This document shows positions 4,896 to 16,759 of a stretch of DNA of 64,000 nt, piece after piece. The stretch comes from Chlorobiaceae bacterium (lineage in GTDB: Bacteria > Bacteroidota > Chlorobiia > Chlorobiales > Chlorobiaceae), in contig JAAXWS010000012.1 in assembly GCA_013334865.1 (NCBI GenBank), positions 1 to 64,000 of the forward strand. Reading direction: 5' to 3'. A program made the position numbers and the translations under genes. The notes under the pieces were generated by a model, which was given only the letters and a program-made list of their open reading frames with translations, had not been told where the DNA came from and made no database searches. Position 1 is the stretch's first letter. Each line of letters opens with the position of its first letter.

Positions 4896-6809
4896 ATGTC
4901 AACGACTCCAGTAGATCCCCATTCGTCTTCCATTCCCGGCAAAACCGACCTGAAGCATCTCGCGACGATATCACTTGCTGCGCTCGGCGTCGTCTTCGGC
5001 GATATAGGGACCAGCCCCCTTTACGCGATGAGGGAGTGTTTCCACGGCGAATACAGCATCCCGGTGACGAACGACAACGTCCTCGGCGTGCTCTCCCTTC
5101 TCATCTGGGCGATTCTGCTCATCGTGACGCTCAAATACCTCACGTTCATCATGAAGGCCGATAACGACGGTGAGGGTGGTATTCTTGCCCTGACCTCCCT
5201 GATCATCTCCCATAGTCGCAAGAACAAGAAAGAGCGTTGGCTTCTGGTGGCCATCGGACTGTTCGGTGCGGCGCTCCTGTTCGGTGACGGCATGATCACC
5301 CCTGCGATTTCGGTGCTCAGTGCCGTGGAGGGCGTACAGATCATCGCCCCGGAATTCGGGTCACTGGCGATTCCTGTGACGATCGCCATCCTGATCGGGC
5401 TGTTCCTGTTCCAGCATCACGGCACGGCGAAGGTAGGGGCCCTTTTCGGACCGATCATCCTGGTCTGGTTCACGGCCATCGGCATATTCGGCTTCAACGA
5501 AATTGTTCGCTATCCCCAGATCCTTGTCTCAATCTCGCCCTACTACGGCATCAGGTTCCTCATGAACAACCATATACACGGATTCATGGTGCTTGGGGCC
5601 GTGTTCCTTGCCGTGACCGGTGCGGAGGCCTTGTATGCCGACATGGGGCATTTCGGCCGCCGACCGATCCGTCTGACCTGGCTGGTGGTCGTGTTTCCCT
5701 CCTTGCTGCTGAACTATTTCGGCCAGGGGGCGTTCCTGCTTGCCTCCCCGGAATCCTCCTACAACCCGTTCTACTCCCTCGTACCGTCATGGGGGGTGAT
5801 CCCGATGGTTATTCTTGCGACCATGGCGACGATCATCGCATCCCAGGCGCTCATTACCGGAGTCTTTTCACTTGTCCAGCAGGCGATCCAGCTCGGTTAC
5901 CTCCCGAGGGTGACCGTCAGGCATACCTCGGCGAGCCATATCGGGCAGATATACGTTCCGGCAGCGAACTGGTCGCTGATGATAGCGACCGTGGGACTGG
6001 TTGCCGGATTCGGTTCGTCGAGCAGGCTCGCGTCGGCTTACGGCGTGGCCGTCACTGCGACGATGCTGATCTCGGCCATCCTCTTCTACTATGTCGCCAG
6101 GGACATCTGGAACTGGAACCGGCTTGCGGTCAATCTGCTGGTCGGCCTTTTCATGGTCATGGACCTCTCGTTTTTTGCGGCAAGCATGAGCAAACTGTTT
6201 CACGGGGCATGGTTTCCCCTGGTCATCGGGCTTGTCTGCTTCACGCTGATGGTGACCTGGCAACAGGGGCGAGCGCTGCTCCTCAAGCAGATCCAGGAGC
6301 GGACCCTTACGCTGGGCGAATTCTCCGAAAGCCTTGCCATCCAGTCTCCCCAAAGGGTGAACGGGCAGGCGATCTACCTGACGGCAAATCCCGATATCGT
6401 GCCGATTGCGCTGCTGCATAACATGCGGCACAACAAGGTCCTGCATTCCGAGGTCGGCCTGCTTCATTTTTCGACGGAGCGGGTGCCGAGGGTGTCGAAC
6501 AGCCGCAAGGTGGAGGTGACTTCGATCGGCGACGGCATGTACAAGATCATCGCCCGGTACGGTTACATGGAGTACCCCAACATCCGGCAGGTCCTTGCCC
6601 TTGCAAACCAGCAGGGTATGCATTTCAAGGCGAATGCCATCAGCTTTTTCCTCAATCGCGAAAAGATCGTGGTCGTGATGAAGACCCGGATGAGCGTCTG
6701 GCGGAAGAAGCTGTTCGGGCTTATGGCGCGCAATGCGCTGAGCGCGTCGGCCTATTACGATCTTCCTTCCGGCCAGGTGATCGAGATCGGCGTGCAGGTC
6801 CAGATCTGA
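4896..6809 (+). CDS. kup: Kup/Trk-type potassium uptake protein
   Basis: 637 residues, full length for the KUP/HAK/KT family of proton-coupled K+ importers. The N-terminus carries the diagnostic GVVFGDIGTSPLYA (about residues 33-46). About twelve membrane segments follow to residue 440 or so, with GDGMITPAISVLSAVEG and ALYADMGHFG, which are strongly conserved. A cytoplasmic C-terminal domain of about 170 residues completes it. It should act in turgor and K+ homeostasis at the inner membrane. Monocistronic, with a short AT-rich gap before terC. Confidence 0.93.
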   Translation: MSTTPVDPHSSSIPGKTDLKHLATISLAALGVVFGDIGTSPLYAMRECFHGEYSIPVTNDNVLGVLSLLIWAILLIVTLKYLTFIMKADNDGEGGILALTSLIISHSRKNKKERWLLVAIGLFGAALLFGDGMITPAISVLSAVEGVQIIAPEFGSLAIPVTIAILIGLFLFQHHGTAKVGALFGPIILVWFTAIGIFGFNEIVRYPQILVSISPYYGIRFLMNNHIHGFMVLGAVFLAVTGAEALYADMGHFGRRPIRLTWLVVVFPSLLLNYFGQGAFLLASPESSYNPFYSLVPSWGVIPMVILATMATIIASQALITGVFSLVQQAIQLGYLPRVTVRHTSASHIGQIYVPAANWSLMIATVGLVAGFGSSSRLASAYGVAVTATMLISAILFYYVARDIWNWNRLAVNLLVGLFMVMDLSFFAASMSKLFHGAWFPLVIGLVCFTLMVTWQQGRALLLKQIQERTLTLGEFSESLAIQSPQRVNGQAIYLTANPDIVPIALLHNMRHNKVLHSEVGLLHFSTERVPRVSNSRKVEVTSIGDGMYKIIARYGYMEYPNIRQVLALANQQGMHFKANAISFFLNREKIVVVMKTRMSVWRKKLFGLMARNALSASAYYDLPSGQVIEIGVQVQI

Positions 6810-6902
6810 CGAAGTGTGCAAATTATTTTGAAGCTGCCGATTATTTATATATATACATATGTACAGTCCTTGCCTGAGAGCGTGTGATGAAAAATCGGCA
6901 GC

Positions 6903-7737: not shown

Positions 7738-8397
7738 ATGACGTCACATAACGGGTTCCACCACCGCCTTCGCGAATATATCCTGAAGAAACACGGCTCG
7801 ATCAACGCATTCTGCCGGGCTACCGGTATCAAGTACCCTGCCCAGATGACCCCCTATCTCAAGGGCAAGTGCCTTCCCGGCAAAAAGATGCTCGAGCGTC
7901 TCGAAAAAGACGGTGCGGACGTCGACTGGATCCTGACCGGCCACGCGGTGGGGGAGATGATGACGCCCATCAGCGATGCCCTGGCGCTTTCGCGTTACCG
8001 TATGGATATCGACAACCTGCTCCGGCAGGTCAGGCTCCATATCGGCCGCTTCGACGACAGGCTCAAGCCGGCCATCGAGGCCTATGCGGTGCTGGATGAC
8101 TCCGAAAACATCGTGGACCTCAACGGTTCGCTCGAGAAGTTCCTTGGATATGAAGCCGGCAAGCTTTCCGGCGCGTCGCTTTCCACGCTGATCCATCCGG
8201 AAGACTATGTTCAGATCAAGAGTGCGCTCCAGCGTCAGAAGCCTGATGAGGCGGTGCTTATGTTCTATTCGCGTTTCCTTGCCGGGGATGGTGCATATCT
8301 CAATGTCGAGTGGAGCCTTTCGGTGAAACGGAAGCCGATGAGCGACCTCAACGAATATGCGATGATTCTCCGCAAGACCGACTTCAAGGTCGGCTGA
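7738..8397 (+). CDS. HTH (XRE-like) plus PAS domain regulator
   Basis: 219 residues from ATG 7738. Residues 1-65 resemble the helix-turn-helix of phage-repressor proteins: GSINAFCRATGIKYPAQM followed by a recognition-like helix, then VDWILTGH, which resembles the DxxWLLTG ending seen in such repressors. Residues about 110-215 form a PAS domain (LGYEAGKLSG, LIHPEDY, PAC-like tail). The pairing suggests a transcription factor that senses a ligand or redox state directly. An upstream ATG at 7663 would overlap terC by 23 bp. I prefer 7738 because the domain begins there. The target genes are unknown. Confidence 0.65.
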   Translation: MTSHNGFHHRLREYILKKHGSINAFCRATGIKYPAQMTPYLKGKCLPGKKMLERLEKDGADVDWILTGHAVGEMMTPISDALALSRYRMDIDNLLRQVRLHIGRFDDRLKPAIEAYAVLDDSENIVDLNGSLEKFLGYEAGKLSGASLSTLIHPEDYVQIKSALQRQKPDEAVLMFYSRFLAGDGAYLNVEWSLSVKRKPMSDLNEYAMILRKTDFKVG

Positions 8398-8442: not shown

Positions 8443-8466
8443 GAAGCCGGCCAGGGGGCCGGCTTC
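8443..8466 (+). terminator. Hairpin downstream of the HTH-PAS gene
   Basis: A perfect 10-bp GC-rich stem (8443-8452 with 8457-8466) and an AGGG loop, 45 bp after the stop codon. The following bases are only moderately T-rich (GGCGTTATTCGTGT), so termination may be partial. Confidence 0.6.
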
Positions 8467-8625
8467 GGCGTTATTCGTGTCTTGTTGCCCTGCTTGTTGT
8501 TGGTTGTTTATATAATACGTATTTCATGTAGTAAAAGATATATTCTGTATGTTGTGTTTTTCGGGTCGTCAAGAATATTTCTTTTGATTTATTGGAATAA
8601 ATATTTTTATTTATTCTAAGTGTTT

Positions 8626-8745
8626 TATTGCACTGGAAAGCATCTTTCCGGTGTTTTGACAGAGGTTTCTCACGCCAGTGAGAAAGAGCAGATCCGTGGG
8701 GGAACGTCTGCTCACCAAAGCGGCCGCCTGGCCGCTTTTTTTTTA
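8626..8745 (+). ncRNA. Candidate structured small RNA, Chlorobi-1-like
   Basis: Four consecutive hairpins fill about 115 bases with no coding frame. H1: 8631-8640 with 8644-8653 (10 bp, one G-U). H2: 8666-8673 with 8678-8685 (8 bp, GCCA loop). H3: 8686-8692 with 8707-8713 (7 bp). H4: 8719-8725 with 8730-8736, followed by nine Ts, a textbook intrinsic terminator. The upstream 100 bp are very AT-rich with TATAAT at 8511-8516 and other possible promoters. The published Chlorobi-1 motif is described as stem-loops followed by a terminator in this phylum, so this is a good match by architecture only. The 5' end is approximate. Confidence 0.6.
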
Positions 8746-9087
8746 TTGATCCTTACTGCCGACCGGTTGACCCTGCCTCGGGATTCCCTGTTTCAACCGG
8801 GGGAATATTTCGGCATTCTTGCACCGGGTTCCGCCATGCATGCCACCATTCCTGATGCTTGCGGATGTAGCGGTCGCTGTATGCCGAATCATGATCGACC
8901 GGATATCCGCATTGGCAACCGGGTGACTGCAGGGATATCTGCCGCATTCCTGACCGGCGGGTATCATGAAGAAGGTGGCGGTCGACGCAACAAGAGGAGT
9001 TAATTATTTTCTAAATTTCGTTACTATGCAGGGTTGATGTTTTCGATGAACGAGAAGTCCCTCGACAGACGTGGAAAGGAGGCAAGG
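8746..9087. other. Intergenic region with possible gene remnant
   Basis: About 340 bp between the small RNA and the next gene. A minus-strand frame at 8753-8947 (64 codons) has protein-like composition (for example SDRYIRKHQEWW) but no recognised family and no good start. It may be a decayed gene or chance. Otherwise nothing is seen. Confidence 0.3.
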
Positions 9088-9680: not shown

Positions 9681-10997
9681 TTACCGGTCGGTGAAAACCG
9701 CATCATGCCGGTTGGCCCAGCCGGCGTCTGCTTTCTGGCCCGAGGGCAGGATCGTCGACGGGGAAATGATGGCACCGCTCAGGTTCGTTCCGGTCAATGT
9801 TGCCCCGGTCAGGTTTGCGCCTTTGAGAGATGCGCGTTCGAGGTTGGCGTCGAAAAGGGATGTCTTGCTGAGGTTCGCCCCGTCCAGTTTCGCTCCATAG
9901 AGCATCGCGCCGAAAAGGATCGCACCGCTAAGGTCGGCGTTGGAAAGGTCGGCGTTTTTCATGTATGCACGGTCGAGATTCGCCCCGGCGAGATCCGCTC
10001 CCCTGAGGTTGACCTGCACCATGTCGGCTTTATGGAAGTTCCCTCCTGCAAGTTTGGCTCCTTCGAGATTGGCCTTGTTCAGGTTGGATCCCGAAAAGTC
10101 GGACCCGGACATCTTCGCTTTCCGCAGGTCGACCTCCCTGAGGTCGGCATCGCCCAGTTTCTCCTCCTGTCGCTCGATGTTCATCTCCGGGTTAGCACTC
10201 CTCATGGTATTCCATGCGCCGACCTCCTTGATTTCCGGGCTGTTGGGCGGAGGGGCGCTCAACTTGCCTGCAGGATGGTCCTCGGGTTGTGTTGCCGGCA
10301 GGGCTTCTGGCGGCGGAACGAACACCGGCGGGGTGGTTGCCGGTTCCCTGACGAAACGGGCATCGTGCCTGCCTGCCCAGGCACCATCGGCAGCCTGGCC
10401 TGATGGCAGGATGGTGTTGTTCGAGATCCTGGCATCCTTCAGCGAGGCATTGTCAAGGAACCTTGCTTCGTTGCACTGCGCGCCCCTGAGATCGGCCCGC
10501 TCGAAATCGGCTTCGAACAGGATGGCCCCGCCGAGGTTCGCCTGGTTCAGGTCCGCATCCGCAAGCTTGGCCCACCTGAGGTTCGCCGCTGCAAGGTTCG
10601 CCCCGGCAAGGCGCGCTGATTCCATGAAAGCCCCGTTCATCACGGCCTCCTTGAGCCATGCGTTCGACAGGTCCGTCCCCTTCATGTTCGACTTTTTGAG
10701 GTAGGCCATCGAGAGGTTCGCCCCGACGAGGCGCGCATGGTTAAGGTTTGCGCCGCTCAGGTCTGCTTTCGAAAGGTTTGCGCCGGAGAGGTCGGCTTTT
10801 TGCAGGTCCGCATTTTCGAGATTCGCCTTCGAGAGGTCGATCTTCCGATCTGGCCGGGCCTTTCGCATGGCATTCCATTCGACGACGCTTTTCTGGATCA
10901 GGGACACCTGCTCCCGGTCGTATGCCTGAGCCGTGGAAAACAGTATGGCCGACAGAGCGATCGGGAGTATGGGCAGGAGTTGCTTCGGCATGTTCAT
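9681..10997 (-). CDS. Secreted pentapeptide-repeat protein, duplicated architecture
   Basis: 438 residues: a signal peptide (about 1-25, ending AQA), then two similar modules of A(D/N)LXX pentapeptide repeats (about residues 50-185 and 290-410). Each module opens with a WNxMR...NP/RP helix. Each closes with a near-identical tail of the form TILPSGQ.AD..WA.RHDA.F, so the gene arose by internal duplication. Such repeats form a right-handed beta-helix. A Pro-rich linker (VFVPPPEALPATQPEDHPAG) joins the halves. The signal peptide makes it periplasmic or surface-located, unlike the cytosolic gyrase-protecting Qnr proteins. Function unknown. Confidence 0.85.
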   Translation of the reverse strand: MNMPKQLLPILPIALSAILFSTAQAYDREQVSLIQKSVVEWNAMRKARPDRKIDLSKANLENADLQKADLSGANLSKADLSGANLNHARLVGANLSMAYLKKSNMKGTDLSNAWLKEAVMNGAFMESARLAGANLAAANLRWAKLADADLNQANLGGAILFEADFERADLRGAQCNEARFLDNASLKDARISNNTILPSGQAADGAWAGRHDARFVREPATTPPVFVPPPEALPATQPEDHPAGKLSAPPPNSPEIKEVGAWNTMRSANPEMNIERQEEKLGDADLREVDLRKAKMSGSDFSGSNLNKANLEGAKLAGGNFHKADMVQVNLRGADLAGANLDRAYMKNADLSNADLSGAILFGAMLYGAKLDGANLSKTSLFDANLERASLKGANLTGATLTGTNLSGAIISPSTILPSGQKADAGWANRHDAVFTDR

Positions 10998-12488: not shown

Positions 12489-12851
12489 TCACTCCATGAG
12501 CTTCAGGCTCATGAGCAGCTCCTGGCCGCTGAAGGGCTTCTTGAGGGTGGCGTTGGCTCCGAGGGCATCGGCGAGCACCAGATAGTTCTCGGGACCGACC
12601 TTGCCGCCGCCGGAGATGGCCATGATCTTGACGGAGGGATTCAGTTTCCTTACCTCCATGATCGTTGCGATGCCCTCTTTTTCTGGCATGATCAGGTCGG
12701 TGATGATGGTGCTGATGTCCCGTTCATTCTGGAGCACCTGCAGACCTTCCGAGCCGTTCTCAGCCTCGAAAACGGTATAGTTTTCCCGTTTCAGGGTGGT
12801 GACGATGAACTTCCTGACTGCAGGATCGTCGTCAATGACGAGTATTTTCAT
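12489..12851 (-). CDS. Single-domain response regulator (CheY-like)
   Basis: 120 residues, a receiver domain with no output domain. It shows the acidic pair in VIDDDPA, the phospho-acceptor Asp in IITDLIMPEKEG (about residue 53), the Ser of AISGGG and the Lys of KKPF near 104. The gene overlaps the 3' end of the upstream hybrid kinase (12848-12851), so the pair is translationally coupled. The receiver at 16837 is a close paralogue. It probably relays phosphate to, or competes for, another protein. No target is visible here. Confidence 0.88.
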   Translation of the reverse strand: MKILVIDDDPAVRKFIVTTLKRENYTVFEAENGSEGLQVLQNERDISTIITDLIMPEKEGIATIMEVRKLNPSVKIMAISGGGKVGPENYLVLADALGANATLKKPFSGQELLMSLKLME

Positions 12852-15800
12852 GATGGTAGTTGTTGATGGTGGTTGTTGAAGAGGAGCTCATTGACGGTGG
12901 CTGCCAGATGGGCAAGTTTCACCGGTTTTTTGAGGAGTTTGCTGATGCCGTAACGGTTCAGCGGCATGGTATACTCGATGTTCTTGCCATATCCGGTCAT
13001 CAGGATGAGCGGAAGGTTCGGGCTGATCTTGCGTAACTCCCCGGCAAGTTGCAGACCGGTCATTTCGGGCATCGTGAGGTCGGTGATGACGAGGTCGAAC
13101 CGACGAGGATCCTCCCTGAAGAGCATGAGCGCTTCAAGCGGCGAGTTTTTGGCCTCGACCGAGAATCCAAGTTTTTTCAGCATGATGGTCATCATCTGGA
13201 CGGCAGCTTTTTCGTCGTCGATGAACAGGATGCTGCCGCTTCCCGTTATCGGTTGCACCTCAATGCGGTCGATGGCCGTTTTTTCATTGATGACGGGCAG
13301 GTAGACGCAGAAGGTCGTCCCCTTATCGGGATGGCTTTCGACGGTTATCTCCCCGTTGCAGCTGACGATGATGCCGTGGACGACCGACAGCCCCAACCCT
13401 GTTCCCTTGTCGACCGCTTTGGTCGTGAAGAACGGCTCGAACACCCGCTCGATCGTGGCGTCATCCATGCCCACGCCGGTATCCGAAACCTTAAGGGAAA
13501 TATAGCTGGTGGGCCGGAGCTTCGGAAACGTCTTGAGCATGCTTTCGTCGGGGACGGTCTCGTTCAGGTCGATGCGGAGCGTCCCGCCGGTGTTTTCCAT
13601 GGCATGGAAGGCATTGGTGCACAGGTTGACGATCACCTGGTGGATCTGCGACGGGTCCGCCAGCACGTTGCCGCATCTCTTGTCGATATGCTGCTCGATG
13701 GTAATGGTCGACGGGATGGACGGGCGGAGAAGCTTGAGCGCTTCGCTGACGATCGCCTGCACGCTGACGGCGGCCTGCTTGGTTTCCTGGGCCCTGCTGA
13801 ATGTCAGGATCTGCGACACCAGGTTCTGCGCCCTTTCGGCGGCAAGCATGATTTCGGTGAAATATTCGTGCAGCGGGGTGCCTTGGGCGATGCTGATCGC
13901 ACCCATTTCCGCATATCCGAGGATCGGCGTGAGGATGTTGTTGAAATCGTGCGCGATGCCTCCCGCCAGCGTTCCGATGGTCTCCAGTCGCTGCGATTTG
14001 CGGAGTTGGGACTCAAGGCGATGCTTGTCGTTCTGGGCCTCGATCCTGCGGGTGACGTCGAACAGGATGCCGTCGATGCCCGTATAGCTGCCCTCCGGGG
14101 TGAACGTGGAGGTCTTCCTGTCCTCGATCCAGTGTACCCCGCCCTGCTTGTCGATGATCCTGTAGGTGAGGGTTTCGGAACTTTTGGCCGACCTCAGGCG
14201 GATGTTCGATTCGATGACGGACGGGCGGTCGTCGGGATGGACCATGGCCATCGTTTCGAAAAGGTCGGATTCATACTCCTTCGGTGAGAAATCCGGAACA
14301 GAATCGGGGAGCATCGAGAGCATCTCCGCCCCCTTGCCGCTGATCCGGTATACGGCTCCGGGTATATTGTCGATCAGGCTCTTGAACTCCTGGGCTATCC
14401 GCTGCTGGATGTCGCTGTTCCTGAGGGCGTTTTCTGCCAGTTTCGTTTCGGTCAGGTCGACGAACAGGCCGCTGGCCCCCACAGTTGTCCCATTCCTCAC
14501 GATCGGCATGCTGTAGAAGAGTGCCGGGAACCGGCTGCCGTCTTTCCTGATGCAGGTGTATTCGTTGCTGCCGGGTAGGTTCCCTTTTTCCTCGATGATG
14601 GTGTGCAGGTAGTCATGGAACTTGTCGTGCTCTTCCGGGATGCAGAACCCCAAGGCATCAAACCCCTTCTCCAAATCCGGTTGGGAATAGCCGAACGCTT
14701 CGCTGCAGATGTGGTTTGCATAGGTGAGCCTGAGGGCGGCGTCGATCTCGAACAGCGGCAGGGGCAGCAGTTCGGTCAGCCCCCGCAACTGCTGCCTGTT
14801 TTCGACGAGGTCCCGTTGCGACCTGACTTGTTCGGACATGTCCCTGCTGAGGGCGAACAGCACCGGTTTCTTGTCCCAGATGCCTTTGGTCGCCTTGGTG
14901 TAGACATGCACCAGTTCGCCTCCGGCCGTCTCCAGCGGGATCGTGCATGAGCTTATCTCGCCTCTGATCATGCCCTCGAGTATCGTGCCGACCTCCTCGC
15001 GCCTGCTTTCGGGATGGAATTCAAGCTTGGATCGTCCCGACGCCTCGTTCGACGGGTAGCCGAGGACTTTGCTGACGGCGGCATTGGTCGCGATCACCCT
15101 GCAGTCCATGTCGATGATGAACAGGAGGTCCTCGATCGTATCGAACAGCGATTCGAGGTTGTTCTTGGTTTCGGCGATATGCTGCTCATGGCGGGCGTGC
15201 ATGATTGCCTCGCCGATGTGGGAGGTGATGGTCTCAAGCCCTTTCCGGGCCAGTTCCGAGATTCCTGAAAGCCGGCGGGAAGCGATGTTGAGGCAGGCGA
15301 TCACCTCGCCATGGTAGCTGACCGGCAGGATCGCAACGGCGTTCAGTTTTTCATCGGCTATCAGCTGGTCTTCGGGTATGCCGAGCTTGCTGTACGTCGT
15401 GTACCGGGGGGTTCCCTCAAGGATGATCCGACCCTGTGCCGAATCGATCGGGTAGTATCTGGAGTGCGTGATGAAGTCTGGCGAAAGCCCCTCCTGGTAA
15501 GCCAGGGTGAGGCTTTTGCTTTCGTGGTCGATCAGGTAGATGCCCCCCGCCTCCATTTTCGATATCGCGAGGGCGCTTTTCAGGATGACGGACAGGGTAT
15601 CCCGGAACGACGACGTCGAGCTCAGCTTTATGGCCAGATCGAGTTCGGCCTGTATGACCTTCTCGATCTTCTGGCGCTGCAGGGCGTTGGCGATGACCCC
15701 GCCGGCGAGCTTCAGCACCGAGGCGGTTTCGGGCTGCCAGTTGCGGGGTTCCCTGACGGCGTCGAAACCGATATAGCCGAAGGGCCGGGAGCTGGTGGTC

Positions 15801-16759
15801 AGCGGGATCTCGATCAGCGACTGGATGTCCTGCGCCTCAAGGATCTCTTTTTCGACCGCGGCCTCTTCGGGCATCTGGTCGACCCTGGGGATATAGATGA
15901 TCTCGTTCCTGTAAATCCGCTCCATCCACCAGACACAGGTGTCGGTAGGCATCTCCTGGAGCTGGTCGATCTGCGGCGCGATACCCTCGGCGCACCATTC
16001 GTGGGTGTTGTCCATCACACTCATGTCGTCCGAGAAGAGGAAGACATATGCACGGTCCGCCCCGAGCTGTTCGCCGATGAGCCTGAGGGTCTCAAGCACC
16101 ATCCCGTCGACCTGTTCCGCCGGCAAATTGAGGAAGCTGTTCGAAATGGTCGTCGTCATCTGCTCGAACGACCTGCTCGAAGCCAGTTCCTTTTCCGCCG
16201 CTTTCCTGTCGCTGATCTCCTGGTGTGATCCGATCATTCGCACGGGATGCCCGTCACTGTCCCGCTCGAAAACCTTGCCCCGGTCGAGGACCCAGATCCA
16301 GTGCCCCTCCTTGTGGAGCATCCGCAACTCCATCTCGTAGATGCCGGTTTTTCCGTCGAAGTGCTCCTGGAGCAGCCGGTTTGACATCACCAGGTCGTCA
16401 GGATGGCATCGTTGCTTCCAAAGCTCAATGGTGGTTTCACCAAGCTCCTCGAGATCGTAGCCGATGATGGCGGCCCATCTCCCGTTCACCCGGAGGGCAC
16501 CGGTATTGATATTCCACTCCCAGTAACCGGCCATCGTCGCGTCGAGCGCCATAGACAGGTCCGCAGCGGAGCGCTCGGCCGCAGCGAGCCGTCGCTCCAG
16601 TTCCGCAATACGCTCGAGGAGCGGCGCATCGGCCGACACCTCTCCCCTGCGGCATCCGTGGTATGGTGGTTCTGTGGTTGCTGTGGACATGGTTGAAACA
16701 GTTCTCCCCGTTGCTGCCGGACAATCGCCCGGGGGCTGTCCGACCAGCTCTGGCCGCAA
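12848..16759 (-). CDS. Hybrid sensor histidine kinase with multiple PAS and GAF domains
   Basis: 1303 residues with no membrane segments, so a cytosolic sensor. Approximate order: a short coiled coil (45-68), PAS-PAC (65-190), GAF (205-365), GAF (370-530), PAS (535-650), PAS (665-785), PAS (800-915), HisKA with the phospho-His in GGIAHDFNN (about 939), HATPase (about 1035-1160; NAFHAM, DTGVGM, GTGLGLS), and a C-terminal receiver with VITDLTMPEM (about 1173-1295). Six tandem input domains imply integration of several signals, possibly light, redox or small ligands. Neither GAF shows an obvious bilin cysteine motif. The true start may be Met 24 (16690), since the first 23 residues look non-structural. 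Confidence 0.9.
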   Translation of the reverse strand: MRPELVGQPPGDCPAATGRTVSTMSTATTEPPYHGCRRGEVSADAPLLERIAELERRLAAAERSAADLSMALDATMAGYWEWNINTGALRVNGRWAAIIGYDLEELGETTIELWKQRCHPDDLVMSNRLLQEHFDGKTGIYEMELRMLHKEGHWIWVLDRGKVFERDSDGHPVRMIGSHQEISDRKAAEKELASSRSFEQMTTTISNSFLNLPAEQVDGMVLETLRLIGEQLGADRAYVFLFSDDMSVMDNTHEWCAEGIAPQIDQLQEMPTDTCVWWMERIYRNEIIYIPRVDQMPEEAAVEKEILEAQDIQSLIEIPLTTSSRPFGYIGFDAVREPRNWQPETASVLKLAGGVIANALQRQKIEKVIQAELDLAIKLSSTSSFRDTLSVILKSALAISKMEAGGIYLIDHESKSLTLAYQEGLSPDFITHSRYYPIDSAQGRIILEGTPRYTTYSKLGIPEDQLIADEKLNAVAILPVSYHGEVIACLNIASRRLSGISELARKGLETITSHIGEAIMHARHEQHIAETKNNLESLFDTIEDLLFIIDMDCRVIATNAAVSKVLGYPSNEASGRSKLEFHPESRREEVGTILEGMIRGEISSCTIPLETAGGELVHVYTKATKGIWDKKPVLFALSRDMSEQVRSQRDLVENRQQLRGLTELLPLPLFEIDAALRLTYANHICSEAFGYSQPDLEKGFDALGFCIPEEHDKFHDYLHTIIEEKGNLPGSNEYTCIRKDGSRFPALFYSMPIVRNGTTVGASGLFVDLTETKLAENALRNSDIQQRIAQEFKSLIDNIPGAVYRISGKGAEMLSMLPDSVPDFSPKEYESDLFETMAMVHPDDRPSVIESNIRLRSAKSSETLTYRIIDKQGGVHWIEDRKTSTFTPEGSYTGIDGILFDVTRRIEAQNDKHRLESQLRKSQRLETIGTLAGGIAHDFNNILTPILGYAEMGAISIAQGTPLHEYFTEIMLAAERAQNLVSQILTFSRAQETKQAAVSVQAIVSEALKLLRPSIPSTITIEQHIDKRCGNVLADPSQIHQVIVNLCTNAFHAMENTGGTLRIDLNETVPDESMLKTFPKLRPTSYISLKVSDTGVGMDDATIERVFEPFFTTKAVDKGTGLGLSVVHGIIVSCNGEITVESHPDKGTTFCVYLPVINEKTAIDRIEVQPITGSGSILFIDDEKAAVQMMTIMLKKLGFSVEAKNSPLEALMLFREDPRRFDLVITDLTMPEMTGLQLAGELRKISPNLPLILMTGYGKNIEYTMPLNRYGISKLLKKPVKLAHLAATVNELLFNNHHQQLPS

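Follow-up and report, generated by a model that had tools for sequence, protein, structure and literature searches.

The locus and its RNA structure

At 8661–8742 on the forward strand, the window (the whole stretch of 64,000 nucleotides analysed here, from a Chlorobiaceae bacterium) carries a Chlorobi-1-type small RNA (sRNA) element, composed of two hairpins followed by an intrinsic terminator and matched by both the Rfam model RF01696 and our own model R1. Its neighbours are a gene encoding a PAS-domain protein (7738–8397) and a short gene not assigned to any Pfam family. A perfect palindrome (8443–8466) is found just 3' of the PAS-domain gene; as some orthologs carry a different, GC-rich palindrome at the corresponding position, accompanied in L010 by a T-run, it is probably the terminator of that gene. 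Also near the locus, on the reverse strand, a 438-aa pentapeptide-repeat protein (PF00805) is encoded at 9681–10997. By sequence appearance only, a 1303-aa multi-PAS hybrid sensor kinase-like frame (12848–16759, reverse strand) is followed by a 120-aa response-regulator-like frame (12489–12851).

The region 8626–8745 had been described in a sequence-only reading as a four-hairpin RNA ending in a T-rich terminator, and all four stems are indeed present on the forward strand. The 5' hairpin, here called stem 0, has 11 bp (8630–8640/8644–8654). Hairpin 1 has 8 bp (8666–8673/8678–8685) closing a GCCA loop (8674–8677), hairpin 2 (8686–8692/8707–8713) displays a UGGGGGA loop (8697–8703), and the terminator consists of a 9-bp stem (8717–8725/8730–8738) and a T-run (8736–8744). 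The 171-base stretch around the element folds with −60.5 kcal/mol, compared to −42.9 ± 4.2 in dinucleotide shuffles (z −4.2, 0/200). The reverse strand folds comparably (z −4.7), as palindromes do, and what fixes the strand of the element is thus its homology to the family, together with the T-run and the model match. The terminator scan is likewise weak by itself, shuffles yielding 1.2 such sites per region; the terminator proposed earlier is nevertheless borne out by its retention in orthologs and its covariation in the family.

Stems 1 and 2 and the terminator are near-invariant in five orthologous loci, which share the upstream neighbour gene at ~91% protein identity, and hairpin 1 is invariant in six orthologs. 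Stem 0 folds locally, but neither its sequence nor its position is kept in orthologs, where the z-score of the segment ranges from −0.06 to −1.9, compared to −3.6 in the window. A conserved 5' hairpin was therefore rejected: stem 0 is lineage-specific or incidental, and the conserved element consists of the other three hairpins. The conserved part of the RNA measures ~82 nt; the transcript of 110–120 nt suggested earlier is thus a possibility only, for which transcription would have to start near 8613–8620.

Membership in the Chlorobi-1 family

RF01696 (Chlorobi-1) matches the element over its full length (8662–8725, forward strand, model positions 1–67) with 41.7 bits and an E-value of 2.9e-10, a highly significant match even though it falls short of the 50 bits curated as gathering score. 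At the gathering level, the whole window yields only one tRNA; once an E-value threshold is used, Chlorobi-1 is the best match. Two orthologs of the window locus are at or above the gathering score, G007 with 52.3 bits and G004 with 50 bits. Covariance model R1, built from 59 other copies with every window-type copy left out, matches the window copy at 8661–8742 with 61.8 bits (E 3.7e-11, R1 E-values being rough; R1 positions 1–85). These three results support well a membership by descent, which also fits the taxon, as the genome groups with the Chlorobiaceae and the Chlorobi-1 family is one of green sulfur bacteria.

The window copy shares with Chlorobi-1 the two consecutive hairpins, the start of the terminator stem and the invariant UGGGGG apical loop of hairpin 2 (8697–8702), and differs from it by its score below gathering level and by its loop context (CCGUGGGGGAAC). 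The earlier suggestion of a Chlorobi-1-like RNA thus stands, as does its appeal to the published architecture insofar as the family is concerned; the Rfam model itself, however, comprises two hairpins and the start of a terminator stem, not four hairpins. The original publication (Weinberg et al., 2010; PMC2864571) rates Chlorobi-1 as a certain RNA that is probably not a riboswitch and probably not cis-regulatory. The RF01696 accession is mentioned, in the open-access literature searched, by this discovery paper only.

The compensatory changes in related genomes that had been named as a check were found. In the 59-copy alignment, 23 of the 24 pairs of the three-helix structure have two-sided changes, including those equivalent to hairpins 1 and 2 and to the terminator. 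Moreover, the share of paired cells is 97.4%, compared to 85.3% in shuffles and 39–58% with slid partners. As the structure was derived from the same alignment, which favours this percentage, more weight is to be given to the two-sided changes. This covariation also bears on whether the element could be part of a coding sequence, since an open frame (8620–9003) spans it. A one-base indel within hairpin 2 of ortholog L011 and the covarying family pairs led us to reject this reading; the sequence has furthermore diverged past the T-run in orthologs and no conserved frame with synonymous bias was seen in relatives, making a coding origin extremely improbable. We rather interpret the element as a real small-RNA gene, a divergent, sub-threshold paralog of Chlorobi-1.

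The UGGGGG loop is invariant in all 59 aligned copies as well as in the six window-type copies, and the loop of hairpin 1 is usually GCCC or GCCA, with GNRA in many array copies of the genus. Copies in families outside the Chlorobiaceae retain both loops and are sometimes arranged in tandem pairs. In several of these distant-family copies, the two hairpins are clearly enclosed by an outer helix (GUAACA/UGUUAC and others); this helix is also found in copies 1 and 3 of the array described below and is absent in window and Chlorobium-type copies. The best outer helix in distant families has a mean of 5.4 bp with its own partners compared to 4.4 with swapped partners, and it is therein a probable feature. 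Pairing between the GCCN loop and UGGGGG was considered and not retained: it is compatible with many copies, GNRA loops are common in the genus, and covariation is uninformative on it as the G loop never varies.

Distribution and genomic arrangement

Chlorobi-1 was found in 45 of the 98 genomes of the order, a count that may miss a few weak matches because of strict filtering, in all nine genera and in up to five copies per genome. As it is missing from about half of these genomes, it is not essential. Among 394 genomes sampled from the phylum, every clear match falls inside the order, with one outlier (22.7 bits), and a 22-base core pattern, searched in one genome each of 84,980 species, matches only records titled as green sulfur bacteria. 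In the genus of the window, the RNA is present in six of 21 genomes, all six carrying both an array and a window-type copy.

The genome of the window contains five copies, namely the window copy and four in a row (C30:126112–126789). The four-unit array lies between aguA and mdh (6100–6810 of locus L055, i.e., C30:126100–126810). Copies 1 and 3 are without a terminator and have the outer helix GGTCTGCA...TGCAGGCC, whereas each of copies 2 and 4 is closed by a terminator, which is why the array apparently reads as two sigma-54-driven transcripts of two units each. The A-run/T-run terminators of the array could also serve the convergent mdh gene.

Wherever a Chlorobiaceae array locus reaches far enough on either side, it is flanked by aguA and mdh. 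The genes next to the window-type copies are different ones, and the surroundings of the dispersed and distant-family copies L095–L114 gave no match to aguA or mdh. A cis element of aguA or mdh was rejected on these grounds.

Sigma-54 promoters and an upstream palindrome

Apart from the window-type copies, there are 48 distinct copies in the Chlorobiaceae, and 42 of them are preceded by a near-consensus sigma-54 −24/−12 element (shuffle p ≤ 0.01), at a near-fixed distance of 61–75 bases before the loop, its best form being TTGGCACG-N4-TTGCA. Among the copies without it are the second units of both array pairs in the genome of the window. The full consensus TGGCAYGNNNNTTGCW (TGGCAYGN4TTGCW) is exact in 20 of 53 promoters; as these were gathered with a pattern demanding TGG and TTG-like letters, their base frequencies there are partly by construction. 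The single exact TGGCAYGNNNNTTGCW site of the genome of the window is not at the Chlorobi-1 array; it lies at C31:77365–77380 (L115), in the vicinity of a dnaK-like gene of the same orientation. RpoN is encoded in 93 of the 98 genomes of the order, RNA-free genomes included.

Upstream of these promoters, the words TGTCTCA/TGAGACA occur in 22 of 53 regions, compared to 2.2 expected. The palindrome TGTCTCA-N2..4-TGAGACA (at least 12 of 14 matches) is present in 16 regions, against ~0.2 in mononucleotide shuffles and 0–1 for three control words, although these counts are not independent since related genomes share some sequences by descent. It is typically located 120–190 bp upstream of the −24 element, most sites having a spacing of 3. 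The 2.4-Mb genome of the window holds one N3-form site within one mismatch (C30:125916–125932), ~160 bp upstream of the array promoter. The recurrent palindrome is thus a candidate activating site for the array copies; we make no such proposal for the window copy.

Among the matches listed, enhancer-binding proteins average 6.7 in genomes with sigma-54-type copies vs 5.0 in the others (p 8e-5, shared ancestry uncorrected). The same comparison, again among the matches listed and with phylogeny uncorrected, gives p 0.01 for group g1 alone and p 0.007 for group g2 alone. With this proviso on ancestry and on the matches listed, the excess of 1.7 would be in line with a dedicated activator, for which the genome of the window encodes five candidate enhancer-binding proteins, at C8:53148, C30:105184, C26:167239, C30:139532 and C35:110101.

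The promoters of families f2 and f4 look, by eye, sigma-70-like and not sigma-54-like (e.g., TTGACA-N17-TATTTT in L102). In the loci L095–L105, all from families outside the Chlorobiaceae, the outer helix is often found, tandem pairs sometimes, together with sigma-70-like promoters. Other dispersed copies resembling Chlorobi-1 (L054, L107, L108, L112, L113) have no sigma-54 element; they occupy sites unlike that of the window copy and represent independent departures from sigma-54 control. Our survey of the open-access literature found nothing on Chlorobi-1 regulation or on sigma-54 sRNAs of Chlorobi and, to our knowledge, the wiring of the family through sigma-54 and the palindrome is new.

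Conservation and candidate promoter of the window copy

Unlike most Chlorobiaceae copies, the window copy has no sigma-54 promoter: no convincing element was found within 260 bases upstream of the six window-type loci, whereas the array copies of the same genome have one. A sigma-54-like TGGAAAGCATCTTTCC at about 8634 was rejected, as it is without the −12 GC and was not found in orthologs. An AT-rich block (8575–8620, forward strand) is conserved upstream in six orthologs (alignment A1). It contains TTGATT-N16-TTTATT (8584–8589/8606–8611, forward strand), whose hexamers were picked by eye and were not called by a standard sigma-70 scan, and which could be the promoter of the window copy, as a weak candidate.

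The missing sigma-54 element and the sub-gathering score could be taken as signs that the window copy is a functionless, decaying duplicate of an array copy. Its core is nevertheless near-unchanged across six genomes (the window and five orthologs) while both flanks have diverged, which indicates selection on it; the terminator and UGGGGGA are retained, and so is the copy itself in all six array-bearing genomes. We thus consider decay unlikely. Neither does the position of the element, on the same strand as the PAS-domain gene and ~265 bases downstream of it, make it a convincing 3' UTR or terminator of that gene. The conserved AT-rich block lies between the two, the separate palindrome at 8443–8466 directly follows the gene, with similar hairpins and T-runs there in some orthologs, and sibling copies elsewhere have other neighbours, so that a cis role of this kind is very unlikely. 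The evidence rather favours a separate sRNA gene.

Proposed function and comparison with known sRNA systems

On balance, we consider it somewhat probable that, as a whole, the window copy is an independent gene for a trans-acting sRNA that pairs through its UGGGGGA loop and stands outside sigma-54 control. This explanation is computationally based on the RNA structure, the family homology, the sigma-54 elements and palindrome of the array and the absence of such an element from the window copy. Beyond these, we infer that the gene is transcribed, that an activator exists, that the RNA works in trans and how it pairs. The locus would be an independently transcribed divergent sibling of Chlorobi-1, whose RNA, displaying UGGGGGA on hairpin 2, most likely acts in trans, since non-array copies have differing neighbours. 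The main Chlorobi-1 copies of this genome would be transcribed by sigma-54 RNA polymerase from the aguA–mdh array, upon activation by an enhancer-binding protein recognising TGTCTCA-N2..4-TGAGACA. The window copy would have left this control for a different promoter, probably of a housekeeping type, and would make the same loop available in different circumstances.

The exposed UGGGGGA loop is most likely the working site, as it is invariant and held out by covarying stems. Being G-rich, this loop would most likely act by pairing with C-rich UCCCCCA sites of target mRNAs. This mode is weakened by the lack of Hfq, as no match to PF17209 was found in the genome, which is 98% complete, and by G-rich seeds being unusual. 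Alternatively, UGGGGGA could be the binding site of an RNA-binding protein, titrated by the copies and two-unit transcripts as CsrA is by Csr/Rsm RNAs. The invariance of the loop along with its closing stem, the up to five copies per genome and the apparent two-unit transcripts of this genome are all compatible with sequestration. There is, however, no candidate protein, the genome has no match to CsrA/RsmA (PF02599), and each unit offers one UGGGGGA loop only; we regard sequestration as a tentative possibility and slightly favour mRNA pairing over protein binding.

Chlorobi-1 is reminiscent of several sRNA systems. Qrr sRNAs of Vibrio are sigma-54 dependent. They are, like Chlorobi-1, one to five siblings with a conserved core, and their enhancer-binding activator is LuxO (PMC4211561); we claim no sequence homology with them, and the genome of the window, in contrast, encodes no Hfq. 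The GlmY sRNA of E. coli has a sigma-54 promoter with upstream QseF sites TGT-N12-ACA (PMC6075780). The spacing-4 form TGTCTCA-N4-TGAGACA of Chlorobi-1 loci has the same outline, although most Chlorobi-1 palindromes, with a spacing of 3, are one base shorter, and the RNA is unrelated. Csr/Rsm RNAs are also several siblings with a constant GGA-containing loop (PMC4211561), but the Chlorobi-1 unit has a single such loop and CsrA is absent here.

Since its listing in 2010, Chlorobi-1 has had no assigned function. The link to sigma-54 and the palindrome names a sigma factor, five candidate activators and a candidate functional loop, each of which can be tested in a tractable green sulfur bacterium. 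It may well be that green sulfur bacteria devoid of Hfq and CsrA use a dedicated system of one to five sibling sRNAs, all displaying the invariant UGGGGGA loop and activated through sigma-54 and an enhancer, to which the window gene would add a sigma-54-independent second input. The same RNA under sigma-70-like promoters in more distant Chlorobiales families would then point to an RNA gene that changed sigma factor in evolution. Such wiring, if true, would help to understand how sibling sRNAs function where Hfq and CsrA are lacking, and how the control of an sRNA gene passes from one sigma factor to another. The RNA family was already known and is not categorically new; what changes is that the unexplained Chlorobi-1 family becomes testable.
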